Positions 32,439 through 54,679 of a stretch of DNA of 64,000 bases are shown here, piece by piece. The DNA comes from Streptomyces pristinaespiralis. GTDB lineage: Bacteria; Actinomycetota; Actinomycetes; Streptomycetales; Streptomycetaceae. The DNA lies in assembly GCF_001278075.1 (NCBI RefSeq), contig NZ_CP011340.1:4030001-4094000 (forward strand), in the 5' to 3' direction. A model generated the notes under the pieces. That model did not search any database. It was given only the letters and a program-made list of their open reading frames with translations, and was not told where the DNA came from. Positions within the stretch are counted from its first letter, which is position 1. The number at the start of each line of letters is the position of its first letter. Position numbers and translations under genes: made by a program.

Positions 32439-35400
32439 TCAGACCGTCACGGTCGCCGCGCCGGTCCGTGCGGCCGGCCCGAACTTGCCTTCCAGCTGCG
32501 GGTCCTCGACGACCGACACCCCCTCCATGACCTGGAGGACACGGCCCTCGCGATCGAGCGCGGTGACGGAGCAGGTGACGCCGGCCGGTCCCGCCACGAC
32601 GTTCTCCACCGCGATCAGGAACTCCTGGTCAGCGGGGAGCGGGGCGAAGTAGCGGGCGCGGGCGATCTCCATCGGCAGGCACGCCCGGTTGCGGAAGCGC
32701 CGGACCCACACCAGTGCGGACTGGAGCATCAGGTCGGCGAGCACGGGGCTGTGGAACCGCCCGTGGTACGCGCCCCGTGCGGGGCGGGTGTCGCCGAGCC
32801 GTGCGACGAGCAGCAGCAGCCGCTCGTCGGCCGCGAGGACGCCGCGGATGCCCCGCAGCGTGGGCCCGTGGAAGAGCGTTCCGTCGCGGTACAGATGGGC
32901 GGCGTCGGTCCGGTCCGCCGCGCCGGCGGCGCGGACGAGGTCGGGCCGGTCCGCGGGACCGCCGTCGGCCGGGTCGGTGCCGAGGACGCCGCCGTACGCG
33001 GGCCTGCTGCGCCCGGCGTCGTCCACCGCGGAGGCGAGCACGTCGACCGAGCCGGGGCCGGCGCCCTGGCCGGGCTCCATGAACAGCCGCAGCCTGCCGG
33101 CGCCCTGGGCGCGGCCGCTGGTGCCGGTTCCGTTGCCGCTGCCGTTGGCGTCGGCGTTGCTGCTGCCGCTGCCGTCGCCGTCCAGGACGACGCCCTTGAA
33201 GACCTTGAACCGGCTCACCTCCGTGACCGGCTTCCCCGTCGCCGTCTCCGCGGTGTTGATCAGCGCCCCCAGCGCGGCGGTCGCGGGCAGCACCCGCTTG
33301 CCGTCGATGGCGTGGTCCGCGAGGACCGTCTCCGCCGCGATGTCCGCCAGGGTGCGGTCCACGAGGAGGGAGGCGGGCCGAGGAGCGGTGCCGTCGGCCG
33401 GCGGCGCGGACAGCGGCTTGAGCGGACCGGCGACGATGACGGTGTCGTGACCGCGGGCCGCGGTGAACTGCTCGGCGAAGATGCCGGCGCCGGTCTCCAC
33501 CGGGACGAGCTCCACACCGCGCGAGGCGAACATCCGGCGCAGATCGTCGGTGACCATGCCGCCGTCCCACGCACCCCAGTTGACGGAGGTGACGCGCGCA
33601 GAGGGCAGTTCGTGCTTGAGCCGCACCGCGAGCCGGTTGAGCGCCTCGTTGGCGACGGCGTAGTCGGACTGGCCGCGGTTGCCGAAGAACCCGGCGACCG
33701 AGGAGAAGAAGATCAGGTGACGCAGGGCCGCCGTGCCGCGCAGCGCGTCCAGCACATTGCCCAGACCCACGATCTTCGTCCCGAGGACCTTGGCGATCTC
33801 CTCCTGCGTCTTGTCCGCGATCAGCCGGTCCGCGAGCACTCCCGCACCGTGCACGACACCGGTGACGCGTGCGGCGTACGGCGCGAGCGAGCGGTTCACG
33901 GCCTCGGCGTCGGTGATGTCGACGGCGACGTACTCGACGGTGGCGCCGGTCGCGCGGAGCCGGGTCAGGTTGGCCTGGATCTCCCGGCTGCCGGTGATCT
34001 CCCGGTAGACCGCCTCGACCCCACGAGGTGTCGGCTTCTCCCCCGTGGCGGCGATGCGCTTGGCGATGGTGCCCTTGAGAGCCGCGCCCTCGAGGCCCAG
34101 CGCCCACCCGGGATCGGCAGACACCTCACTGCGGCCCAGGAGCAGCAGCCCCGCGGGGCGTGCCGTGACCAGCGCCTGCAGACAGTCGGCGGTGATGCCT
34201 CGGGCCCCGCCCGTCACGACGAGCAGGTCCCGTGTGCTGATCTCGGGCACGGCCGTCACATGCGTGGCCGGCGCCTCGGCCGACGGGACGACGGTGCGCC
34301 GTCCGTCCGCGTCGTGCGCGACGTCCGCGATGCCGGTCGCCAGATCCTTGATCTCGCCCAGGAAGCGGGCGGCGACGGTGGGGGCGTCCATGCCCGGCGC
34401 GAAGTCGACCGTGCGGGCGAAGACTTCCGGCGTCTCGATCGCCAGCGTCTTCACCAGGCCGCTCACCCCGCCGAGCAGGGCCGAACCGGTGCCGCCGCCG
34501 CGGTAGCCGCTGGCGCCGTCCAACTGGGTCACCGCGACGAAGGCCGCCCTGCCGCCGGCCGCGGCAGCGGCCTTCAGCGCGGGCTGCGTCTGCTTCGCCA
34601 CGAGAACGGTGTGCGCGAGCCGCCGGGCCGCGTCGGCCCAGTCCTGCCCGGCTGCAGCCGCCATCTGCACCACGAGGTCGAGACGCCCGGCCGTGACGAC
34701 ACGGGCCAGCTCATCGGCCTCCCAGGTACGCAGCGACCGCACCGAGTCCGCTTCGACGGAGGTCGCGATACCGTCCGGCAGCGCGACGACCTCCACCCGC
34801 CAGCCGTCGGCACGCAGTGCGGCCACGAGGGGCTGCGTCAGCGTCGACCCGTCGTCGATGACGAGCGCCGTCCGCTGGTCGGCATAGGCGCCGACGACGG
34901 TGGAGGCGACGGGTAGTTCACGTATGGCGGCGAAGGTCCTGCCGACCCCGTCGGCAGCCGGGTACGTCACGACGAGAGGCACGTCGGCGGTCGGGCCGGA
35001 GGTCACGGGAGCGGGTGCGGCCGGCGACGCGGGAGCGGTCGGCGACGCGGCGGACGCCAGGAAACCAGCAACGTCACCCAGCGTGCGCAACTCACCCAGA
35101 CGCTCAGGATCCACATCACCCGACACCGGGAACCGATCCTGCAACGCACCCATGATCTGAACCCGCTTGATCGAATCGATCCCCAGATCCGCCTCAAGAT
35201 CCATACCCGGCTCCAACATCTCCGCCGGATAACCCGTCTTCTCCGCCACCACCTCCACCAACGCACCCAACACCGCACCACCAGGCACAGAAACCGGAAC
35301 AGAGACGGGCTCAGGAGCCGGAACGGGAGCAACGGCCTCGGAAACGGCCACGGTCACGGGAGCGGGTGCGGCCGGCGACGCGGGAGCGGTCGGCGACGCG

Positions 35401-38400
35401 GCGGACGCCAGGAAACCAGCGACATCACCGAGCGTGCGCAACTCACCCAGACGCTCAGGATCCACATCACCCGACACCGGGAACCGATCCTGCAACGCAC
35501 CCATGATCTGAACCCGCTTGATCGAATCGATCCCCAGATCCGCCTCAAGATCCATACCCGGCTCCAACATCTCCGCCGGATAACCCGTCTTCTCCGCCAC
35601 CACCTCCACCAACGCACCCAACACCGCACCACCAGGCACAGAAACCGGAACAGAGACGGGCTCAGGAGCCGGAACGGGAGCAACGGCCTCGGAAACGGCC
35701 ACGGTCACGGGAGCGGGTGCGGCCGGCGACGCGGGAGCGGTCGGCGACGCGGCGGACGCCAGGAAACCAGCGACATCACCGAGCGTGCGCAACTCACCCA
35801 GACGCTCAGGATCCACATCACCCGACACCGGGAACCGATCCTGCAACGCACCCATGATCTGAACCCGCTTGATCGAATCGATCCCCAGATCCGCCTCAAG
35901 ATCCATACCCGGCTCCAACATCTCCGCCGGATAACCCGTCTTCTCCGCCACCACCTCCACCAACGCACCCAACACCGCACCACCCGGCACAGACACCGGA
36001 ACGGAGACGGGAGCCGGAACGGGAGCAACGGCCTCGGAAACGGCCTCGGTCACGGGAGCGGAAGCGGACGCGGGTGCGGTCGGCGACGCGGCGGACGCCA
36101 GGAAACCAGCAACGTCACCCAGCGTGCGCAACTCACCCAGACGCTCAGGATCCACATCACCCGACACCGGGAACCGATCCTGCAACGCACCCATGATCTG
36201 AACCCGCTTGATCGAATCGATCCCCAGATCCGCCTCAAGATCCATACCCGGCTCCAACATCTCCGCCGGATAACCCGTCTTCTCCGCCACCACCTCCACC
36301 AACGCACCCAACACCGCACCACCCGGCACAGACACCGGAACAGAAGGCTCAGGAACAGAAACCGGAACGGGCTCCGGAGCAGGAGCCGCCGGCGCCACAG
36401 GGACCACCGGTGACGGCACGGCCGTCGCCGCCTCCGGCGCCGGCGTTCCCTCCCGAAGCGCCTCGATCAGCAGGCGCGTCGCCCGCTCGTGGCCGGCCGT
36501 GATCGACGTGCTGTGCCGCTCGATCAGGCGCAGCGCGGCGTCCGCGTCGGCGTGTGTGCCCGAGCGGACGGACTCCTCCAGCGAGCGGACCGTCCGGCGG
36601 ACGGTCTCCAGGTGGCTGTCGAGGATCTCGGCCTGGAGGCCGAGCCCTTCGCGCACGACCTCGTCCAGGCCCGTCGGGACGTCCGTGTCCGTACCCTCCG
36701 CGGCCAGGGGCACCTCGGCCACCCGCACCTCGGCCACCGGCTCGCTCACCGGCTCGGCCAGCGCCTTCGCGTACGCCGAACGCCGCGCCTCGCTCACGTA
36801 GTTGACGCCGCGCAGCGGGATCGCCATGCCCTTGCGCGCCGGTTCTTCCGGCACCGGTGCCGTGTGGTCGTCGATGCCGGTGACCGGCAGGCCGAGGACG
36901 GCCAGCTCCAGCGCGGCGCGCTTCGCGGCGATCTCGCCGTCCTTGGCGGGGCCTCCGTCGACGGCGACGGTCACGACGCCTTCGCGGCCCTCGAGGATGC
37001 GGTCCACGAGATCCGACAGCACCCGCTTGGGGCCGAACTCGACGAAGACGCGGTAGCCGTCGGCGTACATCTCCTCGATGCGGGTGGCGAAGTCCACCGG
37101 CTGGAGCAGCTGGTCCACGAGGGTGCGGCGGTTGGCGGCGGTGTCGTTCCCGTAGGACGCGCCCGGCGCGTCGGCGTACACGGGGATGCGCGGCGCGGCC
37201 ACGTCGACGCGCTCGACGGCCGCGCGGAACGCGTCGGCGGCGTGGGCGACGAAGCGGGTGTGGAACGCCGCGGAGACCGGGAGCCGCTTCGCGGGGAGGC
37301 TGCCGCCGGCCTGATCGGCCACGAGCCGGTCGATCTCGGCGGTGGGGCCGCCCACGACGATCTGGCCGGGTGCGTTGATGTTGCAGACGGCCACGTCGCG
37401 GTACTGCGTGAGCGCAGCGGTCACCGCGTCGAGCTCGCCTCGCACGGCGGCCATCGCGCCGGGGTCGTTACCGGTGCCGGTGAGGTCCGCGGGCGGGGCC
37501 ATGGCCAGGCCACGGGCGCGGGCGAGTTCCGCGAAGGCGGCGTCGTCCAGTGCGCCGGCCGCCCACAGGGCGGTCAGTTCGCCGAAGGAGTGGCCGATGG
37601 TGCCGTCCGGGCTGAAGCCGAGCTCACGGAACCAGGCGAACTGGCCGGCGGAGAGCGCCCCGATCGCGGGCTGGGCGAACTGCGTCCGCCGCAGCGCCTC
37701 CTCCTGGGCCTTACGGGTACCGTCGTCGAAGGCGGGCGGGGGGAACACGACCCGCCCGAGGGTCTCGGAGCCGTCGCTGAGCCGGTTGGCCCTGTCGTAC
37801 GCGGCGAGGACGGGCGGCAGCGCGAGCGCCGCGCGGCGGCCCATGCCGACGTACTGGCTGCCCTGGCCCGCGAAGACGGCCGCGGTCTTCGTCCCGGCGG
37901 GCAGCGCGGAGCGGCGGTAGGTGATCCCCTTGGGGTGCTGCCACGAGGGGGCGTCGGGCTTGGCGCGCAGCAACTGTGCCGCTGTGGCCCGCAGTTCCTC
38001 GAACTCGGCGTCCGAGCGGGCGACGATGCCCAGTCGGGCGTCGCCGGACGGCATCCAGCCGCCGCTGTCCGGGGCGGCGCCCTCCTCCAGGCGGCGGGCG
38101 AGGGACCCGGGGTCGGCGGCGTGCCAGATCCCGGTACGGGCGACGGGTCCGAGGACCGCGGACACGTCGGTCCCGTGCTCCTCGAGGACCATGTGGAAGT
38201 TGGTGCCGCCGAAGCCGAAGGAGGAGACCGCGGCCCGCCGCTTGTCCCGGCCGGGATCGGCGACCCAGGGGCGTGCCTCGCCGCTGACGTAGAAGGGGGT
38301 GCGCGCCGGGTCGACGGCCTCGCTGGGCTTCTCGACGTTGATGGTGGGCGGCAGGACCTTCTGGTGCAGGGCGAGCGACAGCTTGATGAGGCCGGCCGCG

Positions 38401-39572
38401 CCGGCGGCGGCCTTGGTGTGCCCGATCTGGGACTTGACGCTTCCGATGGCGGCGTAGCCGCGTGCGTCCTGCCCCTCCATGACGAAGGAGCCGAGCGCGG
38501 ACAGTTCGGTGTGGTCGCCGACGGCGGTGCCGGTGCCGTGCGCCTCGAAGAGCTCCACGGAGCCGGGCGCGACGGCGGCGTCCTCGTAGGCCCGGCGCAG
38601 GGCGAGCTGCTGTCCCTCGGCGCGCGGGGCGTAGATGCTCTTGAATCGGCCGTCGCTGGAGGTGCCGATGCCGCGCAGCACCGAGTAGATCCGGTCCCCG
38701 TCGCGTTCGGCGTCGGCCAGCCGCTTGAGGGCCAGCATGCCGATGCCCTCGCCGATCAGCGTCCCGTCGGCGGACCGGTCGAAGGGCCGGATGACCTGGC
38801 TCTTGGAGAACGCCGGGGTCTTGCTGAAGCACATGTACATGAGGATCGTGTTCTCGGCGTCGCAGCCGCCGGTGATCATCATGTCGGCGCGGCCCTCGAT
38901 GAGCTCGCTGACGGCGAGCTTCACGGCGGCCAGGGAGCTGGCGCAGGCGGCGTCCACCGTGCAGTTGGTGCCGCCGAGGTCGAAGCGGTTGGCTATGCGT
39001 CCGGCGACGACGTTGCCCAGCATGCCGGGGAAGCTGTTCTCCTCCCAGGGGATGTACGCCTTCTTGAAGCGCGCGGCGACCTCCTCGGCCTGGGCCTCAC
39101 TCAGCCCGACGCTGCGCACGACCTCCTTGAGGACGGGGGTCTGCAGGCGCGCGGAGAGCGGCTGGGTGAGCGAGTTGGCGCCGGTGACACCGAGGATGAC
39201 GCCGGTGCGCGTGGGGTCGTACCAGGTGGAGCCCTCGGTGCCGGCGTCGCGCAGCACGTCGCGGGCGACGGTCAGCGACAGCAGCTGGAGGATGTCGGTG
39301 ACCTCGAGGGTGTTCGGCGGCAGGCCGAACTCCATGGGGTTGAACGCGATCTCCGGGAGGAACCCGCCGCGCCGGGCGTAGGTCCTGTCCTCCGCGGTGG
39401 GGTCGGGGTCGTAGTAGTCGTCGGTGTTCCAGTGGCTGGACGGGACGTCCTCTATGCAGTCCTTGGCGTCCATGATGTTGCGCCAGAATTCGCGCAGGTC
39501 GCGCGACTGGGGGAACAGGCCGGCCAACCCGACGATGGCGATGGGTGTGTCGGCCAGACGTGAGTGATGCAC
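32439..39572 (-). CDS. pfaA: PUFA-type synthase subunit, KS-AT-ACPx4-KR-DH (PfaA-like)
   Basis: The 2377 residues contain a ketosynthase (about 1-460; Cys210 in VDAACASS, HGTGTAVGD, KSQIGHTKAAAG) and a malonyl-type acyltransferase (about 560-900; Ser662 in GHSFGE). Four tandem ACPs follow, with attachment serines at 1120, 1233, 1350 and 1467 in identical LGIDSIKRVQIM motifs. A ketoreductase has the nucleotide loop VVTGGARGI near 1783 and FFSSVAGFFGNRGQSDYAVAN. A C-terminal polyketide-type dehydratase domain (about 2060-2370) includes LFHGPTLRGIRGV. This is the PfaA layout. Start GTG at 39572 with GAGAGGACC just upstream. It would elongate with malonyl-CoA from the linked carboxylase. The tandem ACPs are known to raise output in PUFA synthases. 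Confidence 0.93.
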   Translation of the reverse strand: MHHSRLADTPIAIVGLAGLFPQSRDLREFWRNIMDAKDCIEDVPSSHWNTDDYYDPDPTAEDRTYARRGGFLPEIAFNPMEFGLPPNTLEVTDILQLLSLTVARDVLRDAGTEGSTWYDPTRTGVILGVTGANSLTQPLSARLQTPVLKEVVRSVGLSEAQAEEVAARFKKAYIPWEENSFPGMLGNVVAGRIANRFDLGGTNCTVDAACASSLAAVKLAVSELIEGRADMMITGGCDAENTILMYMCFSKTPAFSKSQVIRPFDRSADGTLIGEGIGMLALKRLADAERDGDRIYSVLRGIGTSSDGRFKSIYAPRAEGQQLALRRAYEDAAVAPGSVELFEAHGTGTAVGDHTELSALGSFVMEGQDARGYAAIGSVKSQIGHTKAAAGAAGLIKLSLALHQKVLPPTINVEKPSEAVDPARTPFYVSGEARPWVADPGRDKRRAAVSSFGFGGTNFHMVLEEHGTDVSAVLGPVARTGIWHAADPGSLARRLEEGAAPDSGGWMPSGDARLGIVARSDAEFEELRATAAQLLRAKPDAPSWQHPKGITYRRSALPAGTKTAAVFAGQGSQYVGMGRRAALALPPVLAAYDRANRLSDGSETLGRVVFPPPAFDDGTRKAQEEALRRTQFAQPAIGALSAGQFAWFRELGFSPDGTIGHSFGELTALWAAGALDDAAFAELARARGLAMAPPADLTGTGNDPGAMAAVRGELDAVTAALTQYRDVAVCNINAPGQIVVGGPTAEIDRLVADQAGGSLPAKRLPVSAAFHTRFVAHAADAFRAAVERVDVAAPRIPVYADAPGASYGNDTAANRRTLVDQLLQPVDFATRIEEMYADGYRVFVEFGPKRVLSDLVDRILEGREGVVTVAVDGGPAKDGEIAAKRAALELAVLGLPVTGIDDHTAPVPEEPARKGMAIPLRGVNYVSEARRSAYAKALAEPVSEPVAEVRVAEVPLAAEGTDTDVPTGLDEVVREGLGLQAEILDSHLETVRRTVRSLEESVRSGTHADADAALRLIERHSTSITAGHERATRLLIEALREGTPAPEAATAVPSPVVPVAPAAPAPEPVPVSVPEPSVPVSVPGGAVLGALVEVVAEKTGYPAEMLEPGMDLEADLGIDSIKRVQIMGALQDRFPVSGDVDPERLGELRTLGDVAGFLASAASPTAPASASAPVTEAVSEAVAPVPAPVSVPVSVPGGAVLGALVEVVAEKTGYPAEMLEPGMDLEADLGIDSIKRVQIMGALQDRFPVSGDVDPERLGELRTLGDVAGFLASAASPTAPASPAAPAPVTVAVSEAVAPVPAPEPVSVPVSVPGGAVLGALVEVVAEKTGYPAEMLEPGMDLEADLGIDSIKRVQIMGALQDRFPVSGDVDPERLGELRTLGDVAGFLASAASPTAPASPAAPAPVTVAVSEAVAPVPAPEPVSVPVSVPGGAVLGALVEVVAEKTGYPAEMLEPGMDLEADLGIDSIKRVQIMGALQDRFPVSGDVDPERLGELRTLGDVAGFLASAASPTAPASPAAPAPVTSGPTADVPLVVTYPAADGVGRTFAAIRELPVASTVVGAYADQRTALVIDDGSTLTQPLVAALRADGWRVEVVALPDGIATSVEADSVRSLRTWEADELARVVTAGRLDLVVQMAAAAGQDWADAARRLAHTVLVAKQTQPALKAAAAAGGRAAFVAVTQLDGASGYRGGGTGSALLGGVSGLVKTLAIETPEVFARTVDFAPGMDAPTVAARFLGEIKDLATGIADVAHDADGRRTVVPSAEAPATHVTAVPEISTRDLLVVTGGARGITADCLQALVTARPAGLLLLGRSEVSADPGWALGLEGAALKGTIAKRIAATGEKPTPRGVEAVYREITGSREIQANLTRLRATGATVEYVAVDITDAEAVNRSLAPYAARVTGVVHGAGVLADRLIADKTQEEIAKVLGTKIVGLGNVLDALRGTAALRHLIFFSSVAGFFGNRGQSDYAVANEALNRLAVRLKHELPSARVTSVNWGAWDGGMVTDDLRRMFASRGVELVPVETGAGIFAEQFTAARGHDTVIVAGPLKPLSAPPADGTAPRPASLLVDRTLADIAAETVLADHAIDGKRVLPATAALGALINTAETATGKPVTEVSRFKVFKGVVLDGDGSGSSNADANGSGNGTGTSGRAQGAGRLRLFMEPGQGAGPGSVDVLASAVDDAGRSRPAYGGVLGTDPADGGPADRPDLVRAAGAADRTDAAHLYRDGTLFHGPTLRGIRGVLAADERLLLLVARLGDTRPARGAYHGRFHSPVLADLMLQSALVWVRRFRNRACLPMEIARARYFAPLPADQEFLIAVENVVAGPAGVTCSVTALDREGRVLQVMEGVSVVEDPQLEGKFGPAARTGAATVTV
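35041..36331 (-). repeat. Four near-identical ACP-coding direct repeats
   Basis: Four units of about 250 bases begin at 35041, 35392, 35743 and 36082 (spacing 351, 351 and 339 bases). They encode the four ACPs, are almost identical even at silent positions, and are separated by Ala/Pro/Val-rich linkers that are nearly as similar. Inside the units codon use shifts: GGT, GAT, GTT, TTG and CCT appear, whereas the flanking parts of the same gene use almost only G/C-ending codons. This indicates recent duplication or ongoing gene conversion. Confidence 0.92.
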
Positions 39573-44545: not shown

Positions 44546-45337
44546 TCAGGCGGCGAGCAGTTCCGTGAGCCGACGGCGGGCGAACTCGACGAACGGGACG
44601 CTCGGCAGCAGCCGGCACTCCGCCGCACCGATCGTCCGCCTGCGCACCCCGTCACCCGGCCGCCCCTCGTGCAGGTCCTCGTACGCGGCGCCGACGGCCG
44701 GGAAGAAGCGGCCGTTGTCGTCCCCGACGTCCTCGGTCTCCACCCACACCCGCTCCCCGTCCACGAGGTAGGGGAAGCGGCGTCGCTTGCGGCGGTGTCC
44801 GGGGACCAGGCCCTCCGCGTGGTGGAGGAAGGAGTTGCGGTTGTGCCCCACTCCCAGCAGCAGGATCCGGGCGTCGAGCGCCAGGAGCGCGGCGAACGGG
44901 GAGGCTCCGCCCACCGCGTGGCTCAGCGTCTGCACCGCTGTGACGCGCTCGGCGTCCGGCCCGATCGCTGCGACGGACACCTGCGGGTGCGCGCTGCGCA
45001 GTCGCCCGGGGAGAGCCAGGACCGCGTTCGGGATCGCGCCCATCTCCGTCGGCATGCCGGGACGGAACAGCGGGACCTGTTCCCGGGCCCGTACGACCGC
45101 CTCCGCGCCGGCATCCGCGGCATCGGGGCACGGGTCGGCGACCGACGGCGTGAACGCCGGTACGGCGAGGGTCCCCGCGGGGCCCAGCGCCGATCTCAGC
45201 GCCGCGACCACGGCCGGCGCCCCGCCCTCGACGTGCCCGAGCCGGGACAGCGAGGCATGGACGACGAGCACCATGCCGCGCCGCACGCCGAGCGCCCTGA
45301 ACTCTTCCGCGAGCAGGTGTTCATCGAGGTTCCGCAT
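44546..45337 (-). CDS. AAC(3)-family N-acetyltransferase
   Basis: The protein has 263 residues from the ATG at 45337; a GTG one codon earlier is possible. It shows the antibiotic 3-N-acetyltransferase pattern: LVVHASLSRLGHVEGGAPAVV, GTLAVPAFTPSVADP, PTEMGAIPNAVLALPGRLRSAHPQVSVAAIG in two stretches, and LLLGVGHNRNSFLHHAEG. Members acetylate amino groups of aminoglycosides but also other small amines, using acetyl-CoA. It is the last gene of the leftward halogenase/ATP-grasp operon, 13 bases after the antiporter gene. It more likely acetylates the pathway product or an intermediate (self-protection or tailoring) than acts as aminoglycoside resistance. Confidence 0.88.
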   Translation of the reverse strand: MRNLDEHLLAEEFRALGVRRGMVLVVHASLSRLGHVEGGAPAVVAALRSALGPAGTLAVPAFTPSVADPCPDAADAGAEAVVRAREQVPLFRPGMPTEMGAIPNAVLALPGRLRSAHPQVSVAAIGPDAERVTAVQTLSHAVGGASPFAALLALDARILLLGVGHNRNSFLHHAEGLVPGHRRKRRRFPYLVDGERVWVETEDVGDDNGRFFPAVGAAYEDLHEGRPGDGVRRRTIGAAECRLLPSVPFVEFARRRLTELLAA

Positions 45338-45350
45338 CACGCGGGCTCCT

Positions 45351-46691
45351 TCACTGGGCGGTGGCCACCGGGTCCGCGTCCTGGCGTGCGGCGGTGGCGC
45401 CGCCCGGTACCGGCGCTTCCGGTGCGCCGTCGGCCACCAGGGCGGGCGACGCCGGCCGGCGCTTCGTCTGCCGGGGCAGCACCAAGCCGGCCATCCCGGT
45501 GGTCACGACGGCCATGCAGACCATCATGGTGAACATCCGGGTGTCGAGTATGCCCATGCTGAGCCCCGCGTTGAGGATGATCAGCTCCGTCAGCCCGCGG
45601 GTGTTCATGAGGAACCCGAGAAGCGTGCTGTCACGCCAGCCCAGGCCCCGGGCACGCGCGACCGCCATGGTGCCGGCGAGTTTGCCCGCGCACGCCACCG
45701 CCAGGATGGCCAGGAACTCCGTCAGCCCCGCTCCGCCCAGACCCGCGACGTCGACCGTCAGGCCCGTGGCGATGAAGAAGACGGGCAGCAGCAGGCCGCT
45801 GACGTGCTGGAACGGCACCTCGAGTGCTTCCTTCACCGCCGGGCGCACGGTGCGCGGCACGGCCAGACCGAACGCGAAGGCCCCGAAGATGGTCTCGAGC
45901 CCGATCCACTGCGCCGTCCACGCGGCGGCGAACACCCCGGCGGCGACCACGGGAAGCCCCACCGTGGTCAGCCTCCCCGCCCGCGCCGCCCGTTCCAGCA
46001 CGCGGCGCAGGAGGGGCCTGACGACCAGTGCGAGGACGAGGACGGCGAGGACGGACCACCCCGCGACGGACAGCAGGTGCGAATAGCCGCCGGAGACGGC
46101 CATGACGGACACGGCGACGAGCATGCACCAGGCGATGATGTCGCCGACCGCCGCCGCGGCCACGGCCAGGAACCCGACCGTCGTCCCGCCGAGCCGGTTG
46201 TCGGCGACGATCCGTGCCAGTACGGGGAAGGCGGTGATCGCCATGGCCGTCCCCACGAACAGCATGAACGTGGTCCGGTCCACCGGCTGCCCGCCCGCGG
46301 AGGAATGGGATCCGTGCAGCCAGAGCGCGAGCAGGCATCCGGTGGCGAAGGGGACCGCGATGCTCGCCACGGACAGGGCCGCGACGGTCCCCCCGCTGCG
46401 CCGTAACCTGCCGAGATCGATGTCCCAGCCGATCAGGAACATGAACAGCAGGATCCCCACCTGCGCGATGGCGGTGAGGGCCGCTCGTGTCTCGTCGGGG
46501 AAGAGAAGACCCGGCAGGTCGCCGGGGAGAAGTCCCAGCAGGCTGGGTCCGAGTGCGATGCCGACCAGGATCTCGGCCGTGACCGCGGGTTGGCGCAGTC
46601 GCTGCATGACGGGTCGCAGCAGCGCACCGAGCACAAGGATGATCGACAAGGCCGCGATGGTCTGGGCCATCGCGGGCGGGGAGTGGGTCAT
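45351..46691 (-). CDS. CPA2-type cation/proton antiporter membrane protein
   Basis: At 446 residues it has about 12 hydrophobic segments and the CPA2 family text ILVGIALGPSLLGLLPGDLP, QVGILLFMFLIGWDID, TAMAITAFPVLARI and AAVGDIIAWCML. The residues TAFPV and the Asp in GDI form the family's ion site. No regulatory TrkA-type domain follows. Homologues occur in several antibiotic clusters as exporters or pH-balancing partners. It lies between the OppA-like gene and the acetyltransferase gene in one operon. It could serve self-protection; the transported ion or metabolite is unknown. Confidence 0.88.
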   Translation of the reverse strand: MTHSPPAMAQTIAALSIILVLGALLRPVMQRLRQPAVTAEILVGIALGPSLLGLLPGDLPGLLFPDETRAALTAIAQVGILLFMFLIGWDIDLGRLRRSGGTVAALSVASIAVPFATGCLLALWLHGSHSSAGGQPVDRTTFMLFVGTAMAITAFPVLARIVADNRLGGTTVGFLAVAAAAVGDIIAWCMLVAVSVMAVSGGYSHLLSVAGWSVLAVLVLALVVRPLLRRVLERAARAGRLTTVGLPVVAAGVFAAAWTAQWIGLETIFGAFAFGLAVPRTVRPAVKEALEVPFQHVSGLLLPVFFIATGLTVDVAGLGGAGLTEFLAILAVACAGKLAGTMAVARARGLGWRDSTLLGFLMNTRGLTELIILNAGLSMGILDTRMFTMMVCMAVVTTGMAGLVLPRQTKRRPASPALVADGAPEAPVPGGATAARQDADPVATAQ

Positions 46692-46730: not shown

Positions 46731-48275
46731 TCAGGGCTCCGAGGCGGCAGCAGGATCCGGCCGTGCGAAGGTGGCGTCCGTGTAGTCCGGAAGCCCGTTC
46801 CAGCTGAAGCGCGCGTCGACCCCGGCACCGAGCCCCGCGGCGTTGACGCAGTCCCAGAGGGGGATCACCGGCAGGTCCGCGAACAGCACGGCCTGCGCCT
46901 CGGCCGCCCGGCGCTGTGCCTCCGCGTCGTCCGCCGCGCGCCGGGCCGCGGCCAGGGCGTCCTCGAACCGCCGGCTCCGGTAGCCCGTCTCGTTGGCGGC
47001 CGACCCGATCGCGAACTGGGCCTGGAGGAAGGACAGCAGCGACGGGTAGTCGCCACGCCAGCCGGTGCGGAAAGCGGTGCGCAGCGTGCCGGACGACACG
47101 GCGTCCCGGACGTCCTTGAAGGTCGGCAGCGTGATCAGCTCGACCTCGATACCGAGGGCGGTACGCCACTGTTCCGCCACCTCGCGCAGCCAGTCCTCGT
47201 GGCCGCCGTCCGCGTTGAAGGTGATCCGGAAGGGGCCCTCCCAGGGCGTCAGGGCGTCGGCCCGTGCCCAGAGTGCGCGTGCCGCGGCCGGATCGTGGGT
47301 CAGCACCTCGGAGCCGGGAAGACCGGCCCTGAAACCGGGGAGGGTGTGGGCCGTGAAGTCGGCGGCGGCACGTTTGGTGCCGCGGAAGACACGCCGCACG
47401 ACGCGTTCCCGGTCGAGCGCGCGGGACAGGGCCGCCCGGCGCAGGGCGCCTTCGGCCCCGCTGAACCCCGGCAGCGTGTACGGGACGGCCAGTGCCTTGT
47501 TCAGGGCGACCGGGCGGTCGACGGCACGGTTCCCGAGATCCGCCCGGTAGTCGGCGATCCGGCTGTCGGGGATGCTGTCGAGGATGTCGAGGCGCCCGGC
47601 GAGCAGGTCCTCGTAGGCGCGCTCCAGATCGTCGTAGAAGACGAACGACAACCCGTCGTTGCGTGCCCGGCGCGGTCCTTGATGGCCCTCCCTGGGGACC
47701 AGGTCGTAATGGTCACCGTCCACCGTGCTGCCCGGGGCGGGACGGTACGGCCCGTTGCCCACCGGGTTCCTCCCGAACTCCTTTGGCCCCCGGTCGAAGA
47801 AGACCGGGGGCAGCGGGGCGAACGGGGTGAAGCCGAGGGAGAGCAGGAAGTCCCGGTCGGGTTCGCGGAGCCGGACGGTGAACGTCAGGTCGTCCAGCAC
47901 GGTGAGCCCGCGCAGCCGGGGGCAGGGGCCCTCCCCGTCGGGGACGTAGCCGTCGATGGGCGCGAAGACGGACCGCTGGGCCTGCCGGTTGGCCGGGTCG
48001 GCGCCGTGGTTCCAGGTCCGGACGTAGTCGTGGGCGGTCACCGCGCTGCCGTCCGAGAACGTCCAGCCCGGCCGCAGGGCGACGGTCCATGTGCGCGCGT
48101 CATGGGGCGTGAGGGACTTCAGCATCGCGGGCACCGGCGCGCCGTCCACCGTGTACACGTACAGACCGGTGAACAGCAGGTCCAGGATGCGGTTTCCGTA
48201 CCCCTCGATGGTGTCCGTGGGCACCAGCGGACGCTGGGGACGGCCACCGTTGACCCTGATCGGCCGGGGACTCAT
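46731..48275 (-). CDS. OppA-like type 5 solute-binding protein without a signal peptide
   Basis: Its 514 residues match oligopeptide-binding proteins of ABC importers: LLFTGLYVYTVDGAPVPAM, WTVALRPGWTFSDGSAVTAHDYV, LDRERVVRRVF and FRTGWRGDYPSLLSFLQAQF. The N-terminus is MSPRPIRVNGGRPQRPL, with no hydrophobic stretch and no lipobox Cys, and the ATG is fixed by overlap with the upstream MFS stop (ATGA). No permease or ATPase genes are present. The protein should stay in the cytosol, or be exported only by an unusual route. OppA-like proteins are needed in clavulanate biosynthesis, but those have signal peptides. A peptide-binding, immunity or enzymatic role is possible. Confidence 0.87.
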   Translation of the reverse strand: MSPRPIRVNGGRPQRPLVPTDTIEGYGNRILDLLFTGLYVYTVDGAPVPAMLKSLTPHDARTWTVALRPGWTFSDGSAVTAHDYVRTWNHGADPANRQAQRSVFAPIDGYVPDGEGPCPRLRGLTVLDDLTFTVRLREPDRDFLLSLGFTPFAPLPPVFFDRGPKEFGRNPVGNGPYRPAPGSTVDGDHYDLVPREGHQGPRRARNDGLSFVFYDDLERAYEDLLAGRLDILDSIPDSRIADYRADLGNRAVDRPVALNKALAVPYTLPGFSGAEGALRRAALSRALDRERVVRRVFRGTKRAAADFTAHTLPGFRAGLPGSEVLTHDPAAARALWARADALTPWEGPFRITFNADGGHEDWLREVAEQWRTALGIEVELITLPTFKDVRDAVSSGTLRTAFRTGWRGDYPSLLSFLQAQFAIGSAANETGYRSRRFEDALAAARRAADDAEAQRRAAEAQAVLFADLPVIPLWDCVNAAGLGAGVDARFSWNGLPDYTDATFARPDPAAASEP

Positions 48276-49504
48276 CGGGTCGTCGCCTTCTGTGTGTGCG
48301 GCGCCGCACCGGGGGCGCGGTGTTCCGCCCGCAGGCGGGGGGCCATGCCGGCCACCAGGCTGGCGAGGCCGGCGACCACGAATGCGAGGTGCACCCCTTC
48401 CACGGGGACCAGACCGGCCAGGCCCAGACCCAGCGCGGACACCGCGATCTTCACTCCGGCCATCGTCACGAAGACGGAGGCCCGCAGGTGCTCGGGAGAG
48501 GCGTCCCTGCGGACCGCGAACGACACGGTGTTCAGGACGGACTGGCAGGCGCCGACGGCCAGGAACGCCACCACCGCGCCCCACACCCCGGCGAAGGGCG
48601 CGGCGGCGATGAAGACACCGCTGACGACCGCGCAGAAGCGCGCGGTGTACATGACGTCCCACGCCAGCGGGCGGGCCACGAAGTACAGCGCCGTCAGCAG
48701 CGCGCCCACGCCCGTCGCCGCGATCAGCAGGGGCCCCACCGACCCCGGCAGCCCCTCGCTGCGGGCGAACGTGGTCGCGAGGACGAGGAGGCTTCCCAGC
48801 CCGAACGCGTTGCCGTAGGTGATGATCGTGATGTCGCGCAGGTCCTTGGTACGCGCGATGGTCCGCAGCACGTTGGGGATCGACGCGCCGGCGCGGTCCG
48901 CGGCCGGCACGGGTTGCAGCGGAAGCCGCAGGACGAGCAGCGCTGCCCCGGCGGCCAGCGCGCAGAGCACTCCGACGGTGGCCTGCGCCGACACGGCGGT
49001 GGCCACGGCTCCCACCACGGAGTTCCCCACGCTGCTGCTGACGGCGTAGGTGAGCGAGTCCCCGGACTGGGCACGCCGCTGCGCCGCAACCGTCTCCGGT
49101 ACGAGGCTGCCGAGCCAGCTGCTCAGGCCGCCCGTGAAGATCGGCCCCAGGAAGCCCGCGACGGCCAGGGCACAGGCGGCCGGGACGATGTCGCCCCGCT
49201 GGACGAGCAGCCCCGCGCCGCCGAACAGTACGGCGAAGAGGGCGAAGGAACCGGCGAGCGCGACGCGCGGCGACCTCACCGACGACATCACCCGGGCCGA
49301 CAGCGGACCGAACATGTGGGGCACGGTGATGCACGCCGCCAGCAGCGCCGACGCCGCCACTCCGTCGGTCTTCTGGGCGAGCAGCACGACGGCCGCGGCC
49401 GAGCCGGCGTCCGCCGTGCGGATCGCGAGGGCGGAGCTGTAGTAGGCGGCGACGGCCCCGCGGGGTGACGGTGCGCGCGCGGCGGTGTCCGCGGCCTGGG
49501 TCAT
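48272..49504 (-). CDS. MFS transporter (MDR, 12-TM type)
   Basis: A 410-residue membrane protein with about 12 hydrophobic segments, beginning VAAYYSSALAIRTADAGSAAAVVLLAQ, in the style of small-molecule MFS exporters or amino-acid/peptide importers of actinomycetes. An AAAGG ribosome binding site precedes the ATG at 49504. It is coupled to the OppA-like gene by a four-base overlap, so the two products may work together on the same peptide. It sits in the middle of the halogenase operon, 106 bases after the first ATP-grasp gene. Confidence 0.86.
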   Translation of the reverse strand: MTQAADTAARAPSPRGAVAAYYSSALAIRTADAGSAAAVVLLAQKTDGVAASALLAACITVPHMFGPLSARVMSSVRSPRVALAGSFALFAVLFGGAGLLVQRGDIVPAACALAVAGFLGPIFTGGLSSWLGSLVPETVAAQRRAQSGDSLTYAVSSSVGNSVVGAVATAVSAQATVGVLCALAAGAALLVLRLPLQPVPAADRAGASIPNVLRTIARTKDLRDITIITYGNAFGLGSLLVLATTFARSEGLPGSVGPLLIAATGVGALLTALYFVARPLAWDVMYTARFCAVVSGVFIAAAPFAGVWGAVVAFLAVGACQSVLNTVSFAVRRDASPEHLRASVFVTMAGVKIAVSALGLGLAGLVPVEGVHLAFVVAGLASLVAGMAPRLRAEHRAPGAAPHTQKATTR

Positions 49505-49610: not shown

Positions 49611-50864
49611 TCAGGCGGCGGAGACGGGGACGAGCAGCCGGTGCTGGGCACACCAGCGGGACAGTTCGTCGAAGGTCTTGCGCTCGTCCTCGTCGCCCTG
49701 GAACCCGACGACGAACTGCTGGATCGCGTCGATGCTCGAGGTCGCGCCGCCGTGCGGCTGCCCCATCCGGCCGGTGACGTTGTACTCGAGCACGCCGGGC
49801 AGGTCGCACCGGTCCGGGAGACCGAGGAGCCGGCCCTCGGGCGAGGACTCCAGGTACCAGCCGTAACGGCCCGCGGGCTGTGCGGGGAGCTCCGGCAGGA
49901 CCTCACCGGCGAGACCGCACTGCATCAGGGCGTGGGCGCGGAACATGTCGGCCCCGTGGGCGAGCTTCCAGCACGGGCCGACACCGGCGCCGCCGCCGCG
50001 AGCGGCGATCTCGCAGAAGCGGACGTGCCCGTTCTCCTCGAGGAAGAACTCGGCGTGGAACGGGCTGCCCCCGGTGTCCGGGAGCGTCGCCAGCACGGTC
50101 CGCACGGCCTCGGTGAGCAATCCGTGGGCCGGCGCGGAAAGGGGCACCATCGCCGAGGTCAGCGGACGTGCCTCCTGATAGCCGAGGGTGCTGCCTCCGT
50201 ACCGGGAGACGGTGACGCCGTACGCCTCGTTCCCCGTGGTCAGGCCGTCCACGTGGTACATGTCGCCGGCCGCGAACTCCTGGACCAGCACCGGGGCGTC
50301 CAGCGTCACGGGGTGTGTGCCCAGCCAGTCGTCCAGCGCCGCCTCGTCCCGGAGCACCACGGTGTCCTTGGAGCCGGCGCCGTCGACGGGCTTCACCACC
50401 ACCGGTGTGCCGAGCCTGCGCGCGGCCTCCCGGACGTCGAAGCCGTCGGCCGCCACGGCGAAGGACGGCACGTCCACGGCGCCCTCGAGCAGCTCGTACA
50501 TGCGGTTCTTCAGCCGGAACGCCTCTGCCGATGGCAGGTCCTGACCGGTCGTCACCCCGAGCAGCCCGCGCAGCCGCGCGGCGACGATCAGGCCGCGCTC
50601 GTCCAGGCAGACCACGTGCCGTACGCCGTACCGCTCGTGCCACAGCTCTGCCTGGCGCACCGTGGTCCAGTCGCCGAACAGGTCGTCGACCCAGATCCAC
50701 TCCTCCGCGAGAGCGGCGCTCTCGACGAAGGCCGGGTAGTTCTTCTGGTTCGTGGCGTTCCGCGAGGCGATCAGGACCACGCGGAACCTGTCCGCGAGCC
50801 AGCGCACCACGGGCAGCGCCCCCAGGTCGAAGCCGGTCAGGACGAGGACGGTGTCGCGGCTCAT
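49611..50864 (-). CDS. ATP-grasp carboxylate-amine ligase 1
   Basis: A 417-residue ATP-grasp enzyme. An N-terminal Rossmann-like domain (VLVLTGFDLGALPVVRWLAD) precedes the ATP-binding core with TPVVVKPVDGAGSKDTVVLRD and APVLVQEFAAGDMYHVDG. The metal-binding strand is HVRFCEIAARGGG. It has the size and order of free-amino-acid ligases such as BacD, carnosine synthase and BesA, which activate a carboxylate as acyl phosphate and join it to an amine. It overlaps the second ATP-grasp gene by four bases. Together they could make a di- or tripeptide around the halogenated residue. Confidence 0.9.
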   Translation of the reverse strand: MSRDTVLVLTGFDLGALPVVRWLADRFRVVLIASRNATNQKNYPAFVESAALAEEWIWVDDLFGDWTTVRQAELWHERYGVRHVVCLDERGLIVAARLRGLLGVTTGQDLPSAEAFRLKNRMYELLEGAVDVPSFAVAADGFDVREAARRLGTPVVVKPVDGAGSKDTVVLRDEAALDDWLGTHPVTLDAPVLVQEFAAGDMYHVDGLTTGNEAYGVTVSRYGGSTLGYQEARPLTSAMVPLSAPAHGLLTEAVRTVLATLPDTGGSPFHAEFFLEENGHVRFCEIAARGGGAGVGPCWKLAHGADMFRAHALMQCGLAGEVLPELPAQPAGRYGWYLESSPEGRLLGLPDRCDLPGVLEYNVTGRMGQPHGGATSSIDAIQQFVVGFQGDEDERKTFDELSRWCAQHRLLVPVSAA

Positions 50865-52066
50865 CGAGCCACCTCCAAGGCGATTCGGGACACGGCCTCG
50901 CTCAGCAGCGACTCGAGCTCGTCCGCGGTACCGCCGCGGACGACGAGGAAGCCGTCGAGGTCGACCGAGGAGATCTGGCGGGCGCCGGCGGACCGCCGGT
51001 GCACCCGCTCGAGCGCCCGGTGCGGTTCGGGGACACAGGAACGAACCAGCGCCGGGTCGAAGGACTTGGGAATGCCGACCCAGCCCGTCACACCGCTGCC
51101 TTCGGGGGCCGGACCATCAGGAGCCGTGCCGAAGGTCGCGTCCAGGAGCAGGTCGAACGTGCTGACGCCGAAGTAGGCGTCCACCTGGTCGACGATGCCG
51201 AGGCCGCCCGGCCGGGCGGCGACCTCGCAGAGGACCGGACCCCGCGAGGTCACGAACACCTCGCAGTGGAAGTAGGAGTGCGCGCCGCCGCCCAGCAGGC
51301 CGAGCACGTCGAGCACCCGCCCGGTGAAGCCGCGGAGCTCCACGGCACGCCCGGAGTCCGGATCGATCATCGCGGTGGACAGCGGTGCGCCGAACTCCAG
51401 GATGTCGCTGCGGTAGCGGCTGACCGTCTGGAGGAAGACCTTGCCGTCCAGGACCAGGCCGTCCACATGGAACAGCTCCCCGTCCACGAACTCCTCCGCC
51501 TCCATGTGCGCGGGCGTGTAGAAGGACGGCTGCAGTCCCCCGGCCAGAAGCGCGCGCAGCTCGGTCTCGTCCCGGACCACCCGGGTGCCCACCGAGCCCC
51601 CGCCGAGGCGGGGCTTGACCACGAAGGGGAAGCCGAAGTCCCGCGCGGCGGACAGCAGGTCGAGACCCGTCTCCACCGTGCGGTACCGCGGCACGCTCAC
51701 TCCCGCGTCCGCGAGACGGTCCTTCATCGCGGCCTTGTCGCGGAACAGCCGGGCCGTCGCCGGCCGCAGACCGGGGACGCCGTAGCGCTCCCGGAGCGAG
51801 GCGGCACGCATGATGTCCACCTCGGACAGGGCGATCACACCCGCACAGCCCTCGTCCTCGACGAGACGCGCCGCGTCGTACTCCACCAGGCTGTTGACGT
51901 CGTAGTCCTCGTACACGGTCACCCGCTCCGGGGCAACGCCTCCCGTGGTGACGGAGGCGAGGCTCTTCTCCGGGTGGCACAACAGCCTCATGTTCACCCG
52001 GCCGGCGAGCCGCTCGTACCCGAACTGTGTGAGCGGGTGCCGGCAGAGCGCGATCCCGGTCGCCAT
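50861..52066 (-). CDS. ATP-grasp carboxylate-amine ligase 2
   Basis: At 401 residues it has the same fold as its neighbour but is clearly distinct in sequence. It shows FPFVVKPRLGGGSVGTRVVRD as ATP loop, MEAEEFVDGELFHVDGLVL, and the metal site GPVLCEVAARPGGLG. The N-terminal domain starts IALCRHPLTQFGYERLAG. A TGATG junction couples it to the dehydrogenase gene upstream. Two ATP-grasp ligases in one operon suggest two amide bonds, or one ligase for the substrate and one for a protecting group. Which amino acids are used cannot be read from the sequence. Confidence 0.9.
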   Translation of the reverse strand: MATGIALCRHPLTQFGYERLAGRVNMRLLCHPEKSLASVTTGGVAPERVTVYEDYDVNSLVEYDAARLVEDEGCAGVIALSEVDIMRAASLRERYGVPGLRPATARLFRDKAAMKDRLADAGVSVPRYRTVETGLDLLSAARDFGFPFVVKPRLGGGSVGTRVVRDETELRALLAGGLQPSFYTPAHMEAEEFVDGELFHVDGLVLDGKVFLQTVSRYRSDILEFGAPLSTAMIDPDSGRAVELRGFTGRVLDVLGLLGGGAHSYFHCEVFVTSRGPVLCEVAARPGGLGIVDQVDAYFGVSTFDLLLDATFGTAPDGPAPEGSGVTGWVGIPKSFDPALVRSCVPEPHRALERVHRRSAGARQISSVDLDGFLVVRGGTADELESLLSEAVSRIALEVAR

Positions 52067-53388
52067 CAGCCCTCCAGCTGCAGCGCGTACGCGTAGTCGG
52101 AGACGAAGTCGTCGAGCGACTTGGCGTAGCGGTCACCGCTGGTGAGGACCTTGGCGATGCGCCGGCTGTACTCCAGGGCCGTGTCGTGCATCGAGTAGTA
52201 CATGTCCCAGCCCCACAGGCCCGCGAAGAAGCGGCCGTGCTCCTCGAAGTGGATGTCCGGCAGGAAGGTCGTCCACACGAAGGACTCCACCGGCGAGCGC
52301 AGTGCCGGAGAGCCGCCGATGAGGTCGATGACGACGGCCCCGACGGGGACGTCCCGCTCCGCGTTCCGCCGGGTGATGATGTATTCCGACTGACCGGGCG
52401 TCTCCGCCCCGTTGACGATCAGCTGCGCCGACGCCAGCCGGCCCGGCAGCTCCTCGGGGCTCGTCTGGGGCCGGCCCAGCACGGTGAACTCGACGCGCCG
52501 GTCCCGCAGATGCTCGAAGGCGCCCATGGAGCAGTTGCCGTAGCCGAGGACCAGGACCTCGGGGGTGCGCCCGGCGTTCCGCGAACGGAACAGGTCCAGG
52601 CCGTACTTGGTGCCCCCGATGCCGACCTCCCGGATCTGGCCGATGGCGCGCACGGGCTTGCCGCGCTCCTCAGCCAGCAGACCGTCGCGGCCGGCGGGAA
52701 GATCCTCTTCGCCAAGTCGGTACGGGGCGCCCACCGCCGGAGCGAGGTCGGTGACCCCGTCACCGGCGGTCAGCACGGCCGATCCGGAGACGGCTGCCCG
52801 GGACTGCTCCGGGCCGTCCGTGTCGGTGTAGCGGACCCGGAGCGGCTTGCGCCCGTAGCGCATCAGCGACCGCAGCAGGCCGTTGACGTACTCCTGCGGC
52901 GCCGAGGAGTCGATCAGGACCTCCGGTTCGGGCCCCAGCGCGTCCACGTCCACGCCGGACCCCGCGGCGATGCCGGCCAGGTACCCGTCCGACGGCTCCT
53001 GCGGGTCGGTCACCGTCTCCATGCCGACGAGCCGGACTCCCTTGTCCCGCAGCAGCCGCTCCCGCTCGGGGAAGCAGTACAGGTGCCCCATGGAGAACAG
53101 CGTGGTCCCGTAGGACAGCTGCGCCACCTCGGCCGCCGACGGCCCCTTGAGCTTGACCACGAGGTCCTTGCCGCCGTAGCAGGAGGGGTAGGGCTCGACC
53201 CGTGCCCCCTCCAGTTCGTACTGGCGGTCCAGGTAGCCGATGCCCTCGCCCAGGCCCTGCTGGATGACGACGTCGAACCCGCGGTCGACGTAACGGCGTA
53301 CGTCCTGGGGAACCAGGGTGGCGCGCAGGTCGTGCCCGCCCGGGTTCTCCTCGCAGTCGCTCTCCTTGGCGAAGAGGATCGTTGTCAT
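52066..53388 (-). CDS. Alanine dehydrogenase / saccharopine dehydrogenase / N5-carboxyethylornithine synthase-type enzyme
   Basis: A 440-residue protein of the AlaDH/PNT superfamily. The N-terminal half has the family text ATLVPQDVRRYVDRGFDVVIQQ in two stretches and GIGYLDRQYELEGARV. It contains the catalytic-type Lys81 (VVKLKGP) and His102 (FSMGHLY). The NAD-binding motif VLGYGNCSMGAFEHL follows in the C-terminal half. Relatives either deaminate alanine or couple an amino acid's side-chain amine to a keto acid by reduction, as in saccharopine or N5-(1-carboxyethyl)ornithine. It lies 14 bases after the halogenase gene, so it may act on a chlorinated basic amino acid. Direction and partner acid are unknown. 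Confidence 0.82.
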   Translation of the reverse strand: MTTILFAKESDCEENPGGHDLRATLVPQDVRRYVDRGFDVVIQQGLGEGIGYLDRQYELEGARVEPYPSCYGGKDLVVKLKGPSAAEVAQLSYGTTLFSMGHLYCFPERERLLRDKGVRLVGMETVTDPQEPSDGYLAGIAAGSGVDVDALGPEPEVLIDSSAPQEYVNGLLRSLMRYGRKPLRVRYTDTDGPEQSRAAVSGSAVLTAGDGVTDLAPAVGAPYRLGEEDLPAGRDGLLAEERGKPVRAIGQIREVGIGGTKYGLDLFRSRNAGRTPEVLVLGYGNCSMGAFEHLRDRRVEFTVLGRPQTSPEELPGRLASAQLIVNGAETPGQSEYIITRRNAERDVPVGAVVIDLIGGSPALRSPVESFVWTTFLPDIHFEEHGRFFAGLWGWDMYYSMHDTALEYSRRIAKVLTSGDRYAKSLDDFVSDYAYALQLEG

Positions 53389-53402: not shown

Positions 53403-54236
53403 TCAGTCCGTGTAGACGGCGTTGGTCGTCTCGTAGGACTTCTCCTCCAGCCAGTCCTTGAGGCTGGCGAGGGTCAGGTTCACGATGATCCGCTCCACGC
53501 CCTCGGTCTGGATCGGGACGGTGCGGTGCAGGGTGGTGTCCGTCTTGAAGACGTACGACTCGCCGGCCTCGTGGTGGTAGGTGCGGATGGTGCCGCCGGC
53601 GAGGTTCTCGTGCACGGCCGGGTTCTTCTTGTCCCAGACCGTGTGCGGCACGGCCTGGAGCATGCCGCCGTGCTCGATCGACGGAGCCTCGGCGATGAAG
53701 ATGAAGGCGAACTCGTGGTCGCCCCAGTGCCAGCCGTGCGTGTCGCCCGCGCGGCTCTGGTGGGTGCCGGTGATCTTCTCGTCCTCGAAGGAGGCGTCGA
53801 GGACCGGCGTACCGACCACGGTGGAGAGCACGGAGCGGAACTCCACGGAGTTGTAGAGCGCCGTGAACAGCTTGCTCTGCTCCTGGAACAGCGAGTTGGG
53901 CAGGCTGCCCAGCCTGCGGGGCGTGTCACCGGTGACGGGGACGGTGATGTCGATCCGCCGGGTGTTGAGGTCCGCGAGCCGGCGCGCCTCCGCCCGCAGT
54001 TCGGAGATCAGCTCGGCCGGCAGCAGCGCCGTGGTGCGGGCGTAGTGCTCGGCCGAGTACTGCCGCTTGGCGGCCGTCAGCTTCTCGTCGAGGGTGAGCC
54101 GGTGCCGGGCGATCATCCGGTCGATACGGGCGACCTGTTCGGCGTCGACGTGCGGGCCGGGGACGTTCCCGTGGGCGAGGAGCGCGACAGCGGCCTCACG
54201 CATGGTCATGGCGGGGGATACGGCTTCGATCGTCAT
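53403..54236 (-). CDS. BesD-family Fe(II)/2-oxoglutarate radical halogenase of free amino acids
   Basis: The 277 residues contain H170-W171-G172-D173, where Gly replaces the Asp/Glu iron ligand of hydroxylases; this open site is where chloride binds in halogenases. The distal ligand is His237 (TTLHRTVPI), exactly 67 residues on, the same spacing as I recall for BesD (H137, G139, H204). Counterparts of BesD's lysine-binding residues are at the expected places: Glu153, His167, Asp173, and N-x-T near 253-255. Further family text is FIAEAPSIEHGGMLQAVPHTVWDK. A lysine-like or shorter diamino acid is the likely substrate. I chose the second ATG (54236), with AAGGAG at eight bases; the one at 54242 has it too close. 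Confidence 0.87.
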   Translation of the reverse strand: MTIEAVSPAMTMREAAVALLAHGNVPGPHVDAEQVARIDRMIARHRLTLDEKLTAAKRQYSAEHYARTTALLPAELISELRAEARRLADLNTRRIDITVPVTGDTPRRLGSLPNSLFQEQSKLFTALYNSVEFRSVLSTVVGTPVLDASFEDEKITGTHQSRAGDTHGWHWGDHEFAFIFIAEAPSIEHGGMLQAVPHTVWDKKNPAVHENLAGGTIRTYHHEAGESYVFKTDTTLHRTVPIQTEGVERIIVNLTLASLKDWLEEKSYETTNAVYTD

Positions 54237-54326: not shown

Positions 54327-54491
54327 TCAAAGCCCCCGCATCGCTGGATCTTCGACGCCACGGGCATCACTGCCCGAATACACGTGGTCGGGGTCGTGCG
54401 CGTAAATCCTCGATACGTCGATCTCGTACTGCTCGAGCGCGGACGACCGTGCCGGGCCCGGATCAGGAGGAGTAATGCGCTCGTCGCTCAT
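54327..54491 (-). CDS. Small protein of 54 residues, coupled to the gene before it
   Basis: The ATG at 54489-54491 overlaps the TGA of the upstream 63-residue gene as ATGA, and the frame runs 54 codons to TGA at 54327. The product starts MSDERITPPDPGPARSS, has a central Tyr/Asp/His-rich part (EQYEIDVSRIYAHDPDHVY) and ends GVEDPAMRGL. It is acidic, without Cys and without a membrane segment. Codon use is less extreme than in neighbouring genes (several A/T-ending codons), as often seen in precursor peptides. It lies about 90 bases upstream of the halogenase gene. A scaffold or precursor peptide for the ATP-grasp enzymes, or a small regulatory protein, are both possible. I do not recognise a family. 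Confidence 0.5.
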   Translation of the reverse strand: MSDERITPPDPGPARSSALEQYEIDVSRIYAHDPDHVYSGSDARGVEDPAMRGL

Positions 54492-54679
54492 ACCATTTCC
54501 TTCGAGGCTCGGCCGGCCCAGCGGGCCAGCACTTCCTGGACGTCGCCCCGGCTCAGCTCACTGCAGAGCCGGCTGACCTCGGCAGGCACGCTCACGGACA
54601 GAACAGGGCGGCATCCCCACGTCACGAGGACCGTGCCGTCCTGACGCTCCTGGAATCCATAGAACGAAGGACCGCTCAT
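54488..54679 (-). CDS. Small conserved actinobacterial protein of 63 residues
   Basis: An optimal GGGAGGTGCC ribosome binding site precedes the ATG at 54679. The product has a short beta region (FYGFQERQDGTVLVTWG) followed by helices (PAEVSRLCSELSRGD and VQEVLARWAG). The layout D-G-x-V-x-V-x-x-x-G-R, then E-x-x-R-G-D-x-Q-E-x-x-A-R, recalls a common small Streptomyces protein of unknown function that I have seen in many genomes. Its stop overlaps the next small gene. It is probably the first gene of the halogenase operon. I cannot assign a function. Confidence 0.65.
   Translation of the reverse strand: MSGPSFYGFQERQDGTVLVTWGCRPVLSVSVPAEVSRLCSELSRGDVQEVLARWAGRASKEMV

Follow-up and report, generated by a model that had tools for sequence, protein, structure and literature searches.

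A gene run led by a predicted halogenase in Streptomyces pristinaespiralis

The window, meaning the whole stretch of DNA analysed here (64,000 nucleotides of Streptomyces pristinaespiralis, contig NZ_CP011340.1), carries on its minus strand a run of eight genes in the order halogenase, oxidoreductase, ATP-grasp 1, ATP-grasp 2, MFS, SBP_bac_5, Na/H exchanger, and Antibiotic_NAT. Neighbouring genes of the run overlap by four bases at the closest and lie about 110 bases apart at the widest. The features of the locus are the following.

54491..54679, minus strand: ORF-A, 63 codons, overlapping ORF-B; a 47% identical relative lies upstream of the halogenase in locus L002
54330..54491, minus strand: ORF-B, 54 codons, upstream of the halogenase; L002 alone has a weakly similar ORF in the corresponding position
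53403..54236, minus strand: halogenase, predicted Fe/2OG radical amino-acid type, HalD/BesD family, in a clade of its own, 277 aa
53718..53729, minus strand: H172-W173-G174-D175, comprising the iron His, the Gly that replaces the Asp ligand in halogenases, and the amine-contact Asp (alignment with BesD and HxD relatives)
53712..53714, minus strand: Glu177, almost confined to the clade, two positions past Asp175
53526..53528, minus strand: H239, distal iron His, counterpart of BesD H204
52066..53388, minus strand: oxidoreductase of alanine-dehydrogenase/lysine-oxoglutarate-reductase fold, from a clade that accompanies the halogenase
50861..52066, minus strand: ATP-grasp ligase 1, L-amino-acid-ligase-like (CPSase_L_D2 above cut-off; best solved relative 4wd3, E 1.1e-19)
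49611..50864, minus strand: ATP-grasp ligase 2, L-amino-acid-ligase-like (ATP-grasp_3 above cut-off; 4wd3, E 3.7e-10)
48272..49504, minus strand: MFS transporter, predicted exporter (PF07690, 37.3 bits versus 33.4, run on 48272-49495)
46731..48275, minus strand: SBP_bac_5 oligopeptide-binding protein, no evident signal peptide (PF00496, 158.7 bits)
45351..46691, minus strand: Na/H exchanger, CPA2-like (PF00999, 173.5 bits)
44546..45340, minus strand: AAC(3)/FrbF-like N-acetyltransferase (PF02522, 195.3 bits; best solved relative FrbF, 132 bits)

The halogenase start is placed at the ATG at 54236, which has AAGGAG seven bases upstream; a second in-frame ATG lies at 54242. Residues are numbered here from 54242 (279 aa), and two must be subtracted for the start at 54236.

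No carrier domain was detected by Pfam in any of the eight genes. The second-gene oxidoreductase matches PF05222 and the whole-length fold of the AlaDH/PNT/LKR family, and scores 52.9 bits against the TIGR00518 alanine dehydrogenase equivalog, where the cut-off is 391.85. Unlike alanine dehydrogenase, saccharopine dehydrogenase, and other members of the LKR family, it belongs to its own clade, is about 70 residues longer, and shares 15-22% identity with them. The best solved relatives of both ATP-grasp enzymes are L-amino acid ligases (4wd3, BL00235, BacD), although the similarity is low in each case. The exchanger is TIGR00932-like, at 131.5 bits below the cut-off of 238.3. The acetyltransferase belongs to the PF02522 superfamily but reaches 161.3 of the 270 bits of the AAC(3) equivalog; it is possible that it provides a product-modifying or self-protection step. 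The SBP_bac_5 proteins of the window and of two related loci (L002, 14915-16486; L004, 16023-17555) all start at the mature domain, the absence of a signal peptide being judged by eye. This suggests that they are probably cytosolic.

Conservation and occurrence

Three further loci of the halogenase clade were fetched with 10 kb flanks, and their genes were called by a simple script rather than a trained caller. In Kitasatospora sp. GP82 (L004) the run is complete, with its eight genes in the same order, and Streptomyces sp. ASQP_92 (L002) has seven, the MFS gene being absent. In Nonomuraea guangzhouensis (L003), the halogenase is the sole gene of the run, and an ornithine cyclodeaminase-family gene is located about 3.6 kb downstream of it. 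The close members of the oxidoreductase clade number 15, at 53-94% identity. For eight of them the longest contig is as long as that of a clade halogenase, which hints indirectly at linkage. In three same-genus genomes (L039-L041), distant oxidoreductase homologues adjoin CoA-transferase and methyltransferase genes, and no gene of the halogenase run was found in these neighbourhoods.

The possibility that the run is part of an upstream PKS cluster was rejected, since the PKS, thioesterase, and oxidase genes of that cluster are absent near the halogenase in L002 and L004 (10 kb, E <= 1e-8). At 32439-39572 on the minus strand, the window also encodes a large PKS-like protein whose four tandem carrier-like repeats are nearly identical, an arrangement that we take to be reminiscent of PUFA-type synthases.

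The first-pass annotation described carrier-independent halogenases of this kind as rare, and this is true in a relative sense. At E <= 1e-20, 29 of 392 same-genus genomes hold 30 places of the family (11 HWGD, 8 HWDD, and 11 HTDD); the HWGD places include the own genome and one 138-residue fragment. An HWGD member is present in 11 of the 392 genomes, whereas the window's clade is present in its own genome only. At E <= 1e-60, a clade halogenase was found in two of 297 family genomes, the own genome and G424 (in coordinates that agree with L004), and in one of 394 class genomes, again the own, in a draw that overlaps the family-genome draw. A plasmid collection contained BesD of S. cattleyicolor and no member of the window's clade (35 records, all below 60% identity).

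Family and iron site of the halogenase

In a Pfam profile search, the protein falls within PF23169 (HalD) with 263.5 bits, the cut-off being 26, so that a chance resemblance is set aside. A protein search likewise gave 617 matches at E <= 0.001, of which 120 were listed. The predicted H-W-G-D site, with a distal His 67 residues further on, was found in the expected frame on the minus strand. The spacing of H172 and H239 equals that of H137 and H204 in BesD, which we take to be the iron histidines of that enzyme in crystal numbering, consistent with an offset of three in the chain numbering used in an MD paper. The 2OG Arg (R251) and second-sphere Asn (N255) are also present, as counterparts of BesD R215 and N219 in the alignment. 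The HWGD motif is invariant in all 22 aligned clade rows (the window and 21 of 28 clade matches).

By sequence, the best PDB relatives are HalB (177 bits), BesD (156), 9oer (155, a lysine halogenase structure titled HalA), and HalD (152), with the lysine hydroxylase 7jsd lower (146). The comparison with known halogenases covered BesD, HalA, HalB, and HalD. The clade of the window is separate in the tree (support 100/100, branch 1.76), in which the branches of HalD, L011, and HalA are long and their placement is unsure. Taken together, the iron site, profile, structure model, and tree support the assignment to BesD-type, carrier-independent-looking Fe/2OG halogenases.

Substrate contacts and the lid

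The five residues cited in the first-pass annotation as binding lysine in BesD (E120, H134, D140, N219, and T221) all have counterparts (E155, H169, D175, N255, and T257) in an alignment with the cattleyicolor frame of locus L051, and BesD R74 corresponds to R109. However, seven of seven HxD relatives from same-genus genomes likewise keep the equivalents of E120, H134, D140, and N219, and three of the seven keep that of T221. Because the five residues are family-wide and mostly shared with HxD relatives, they mark the family and not lysine. The same applies to the cationic-substrate contacts E155, D175, R109, and H169, which are all present both here and in the seven HxD relatives. The MD paper on BesD gives R77, E123, H137, D143, D239, and W241 as lysine contacts, in a chain numbering equal to crystal numbering plus three, and assigns N222 and R218 to succinate (PMC13244439). 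The clade member of Nonomuraea (L003, 10001-10801) reads D-T-R-G-W-H-W-G-D, with Arg replacing the carboxylate-contact His of the other rows.

The lid distinguishes the enzyme from BesD, whose D236 and W238/W239 are missing: the Asp column holds Thr, and the Trp columns a gap. The enzyme is predicted with good confidence to act on a basic amino acid, likely lysine or ornithine. Whether it is then an ordinary extra lysine chlorinase, giving 4- or 5-chlorolysine like HalB, HalA, and BesD and leaving the novelty to the downstream genes only, is a proposition to which we would give slightly less than an even chance. It accords with the conserved E155, D175, R109, and H169, with a C-terminal lid that aligns gap-free with that of HalB, and with the structure model suggested as a check by the first-pass annotation, whose closest match is HalB with lysine. 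The long separate branch argues the other way, as do the clade-specific residues Glu177, Tyr270, and Thr273 and some 30 N-terminal residues that do not align to solved relatives. Glu177 occurs in 22 of 22 clade rows and in one of 40 other family rows and, judging by its spacing after D175, would sit in the pocket. The solved lysine/ornithine halogenases HalB, HalD, and HalA are the best sequence and model matches of the enzyme, but they share at most 36% identity with it by structural alignment, have Ser/Pro where it has Glu177, lack its N-terminal extension, and stand in another gene neighbourhood.

Comparison with the bes pathway

The enzyme shares with BesD of Streptantibioticus cattleyicolor its Pfam family, iron site, distal His, and, except in the lid, its amine and carboxylate contacts. 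It nevertheless differs in identity (about 43% over 182 residues), clade, and lid. With the BesD equivalog NF042920, it scores 178 bits where the cut-off is 450, while the BesD frame of S. cattleyicolor, as a positive control, reaches 475.1. The description "BesD-type" is therefore apt for the family and the iron site and does not extend to BesD proper; orthology with BesD was rejected on the equivalog cut-off, the different neighbours, and the lid.

The bes reference was the unannotated S. cattleyicolor locus L051, where further frames pass their equivalogs (BesA, 770.8 of 750 bits; BesB, 971.2 of 800; BesC, 554.3 of 500) and BesE is presumed from its position. Searches with these frames (tblastn, E <= 1e-3) yielded no match to BesA, BesB, BesC, or BesE in the window, L002, L003, or L004, where BesD alone was found. 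The earlier statement that the neighbouring genes differ from those of beta-ethynylserine synthesis is hence confirmed. An ATP-grasp ligase is a feature of both kinds of locus. The earlier proposal of a new, chlorinated product is plausible.

In the bes pathway, chlorine serves as a leaving group, according to PMC8407142 and PMC10187165. With this precedent, and with an oxidoreductase of imine-forming type directly after the halogenase, the chlorine might likewise be added and then lost by elimination or ring closure, which would leave the final product chlorine-free. Such cryptic halogenation seems rather unlikely here, given that a BesB- or BesC-like enzyme is absent from the window and that BesB has one match in the own genome, at 31% identity and far outside the window.

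Halogenase or hydroxylase

HxD relatives have Asp at the column of Gly174, which sets the halogenase apart from these hydroxylase-like proteins. The contrast extends to Hydrox (7jsd, a lysine hydroxylase homologue of BesD), where the iron ligand is Asp. A hydroxylase or an inactive relative could in principle be concealed behind the Gly site, since hydroxylase relatives share the fold and most substrate residues, and PMC13244439 reports that D-to-G alone gave no efficient halogenation in an engineered relative. In the same source, Gly together with the Ile and Asn states (I181 and N255 in the window) turned a hydroxylase relative into a chlorinase. Both states are present in the halogenase, and some HxD relatives carry both too. 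We regard this alternative as very improbable: all 62 family rows of the alignment (drawn from the 120 matches listed plus the window, none picked by motif) have Gly in the third-ligand column, as do all 22 clade rows, and seven HxD rows fall outside 75 HxG rows in the tree (98/91). This third ligand, which the first-pass annotation read as the halogenase mark, is the position that is diagnostic. Hydroxylase identity was rejected on the Gly site and the tree, and halogenase activity is predicted with high confidence.

Small reading frames upstream

In both the window and L002, the halogenase is preceded by small ORFs that overlap each other, and an S-x-L-E-x-Y-E stretch is common to the two loci. 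ORF-B has no Pfam or NCBIfam matches. ORF-A has weaker relatives in L044/L045, near HalB-like halogenases, but G424 and G988 gave no relative at E <= 0.1; a protein search with it returned itself as the sole match. A ribosomal-peptide route, with ORF-B as a precursor or scaffold peptide worked on by the ligases and the halogenase, is considered very unlikely and was set aside, since no counterpart was found near the complete L004 run or in its genome, the similarity of ORF-B comes down to a few residues (tblastn at E <= 1 missed the ORF of L002), and the ligases resemble free-amino-acid ligases.

Na/H exchangers at halogenase loci

A Na/H exchanger gene is present in three of four clade loci and in five of ten non-clade halogenase loci (L043-L046 and L050), in four of them on the strand of the halogenase. 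The ten comprise L051 and nine same-genus HWGD loci with flanks (nine of ten found, the fragmentary L022 being excluded). The own genome has seven PF00999 genes. The biffamycin paper proposes that such an exchanger may provide a tryptophan halogenase with chloride, but found it non-essential for one step in the host used (PMC13285481). The pattern is suggestive, with the exchanger as a possible chloride or pH partner of halogenases.

L044 and L045 have a common order of HalB-like halogenase, glycosyltransferase, ATP-grasp enzyme, AMP-binding-like protein, and Na/H exchanger, and differ from the window in their glycosyltransferase and AMP-binding genes. This appears to be a further, undescribed-looking halogenase operon. 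L043 and L046 have another conserved order: HalD-family halogenase, iron-containing redox enzyme (Haem_oxygenas_2, as BesC), FMN-dependent dehydrogenase, flavin (tryptophan-halogenase-like) protein, and kinase.

A proposed route

We moderately favour the view that the halogenase heads a conserved run for the NRPS-free construction and export of a small peptide, chlorinated from a free basic amino acid (likely Lys/Orn). In the first step, Fe(II), 2OG, chloride, and O2 would form a chloro-ferryl at H172/H239, which would take a hydrogen from the side chain and return chlorine, with the side-chain amine held by E155 and D175 and the carboxylate by R109 and H169. The AlaDH/LKR-fold oxidoreductase may then act by imine redox on the chlorinated amino acid or ready its partner. 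The two ATP-grasp ligases would extend the chlorinated amino acid by two more amino acids, or by a single one plus a capping acid. Finally, the MFS transporter would export the product, which the signal-less oligopeptide-binding protein might hold in the cytosol; the acetyltransferase may mask or finish it, and the Na/H exchanger may support pH or chloride supply. On the best reading of these genes, the peptide would be chlorinated or cryptically chlorinated; in the second case the chlorine could leave at a later step, as it does in bes.

It is tempting to speculate about a new substrate branch, although we consider it improbable. The acid-rich pocket (E155, D175, and E177) would accept some basic amino acid other than those tested so far. 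From the chlorinated residue, the LKR-like reductase and the pair of ligases would make a halogenated tripeptide of opine or imine type, representing a class of chlorinated peptide antibiotics assembled without an NRPS.

Significance

Radical halogenases that act on free amino acids are of interest as biocatalysts, since they can place chlorine on unactivated C-H bonds and need no carrier protein to do so. A search of the CC-licensed PubMed Central literature found no description of the pathway of this conserved operon. With a distinct clade in which a pocket residue is altered, the determinants of substrate choice can be probed directly. If the favoured reading of the run as a route to a chlorinated peptide is true, the run would offer a way to chlorinated small peptides that is compact and can be cloned.
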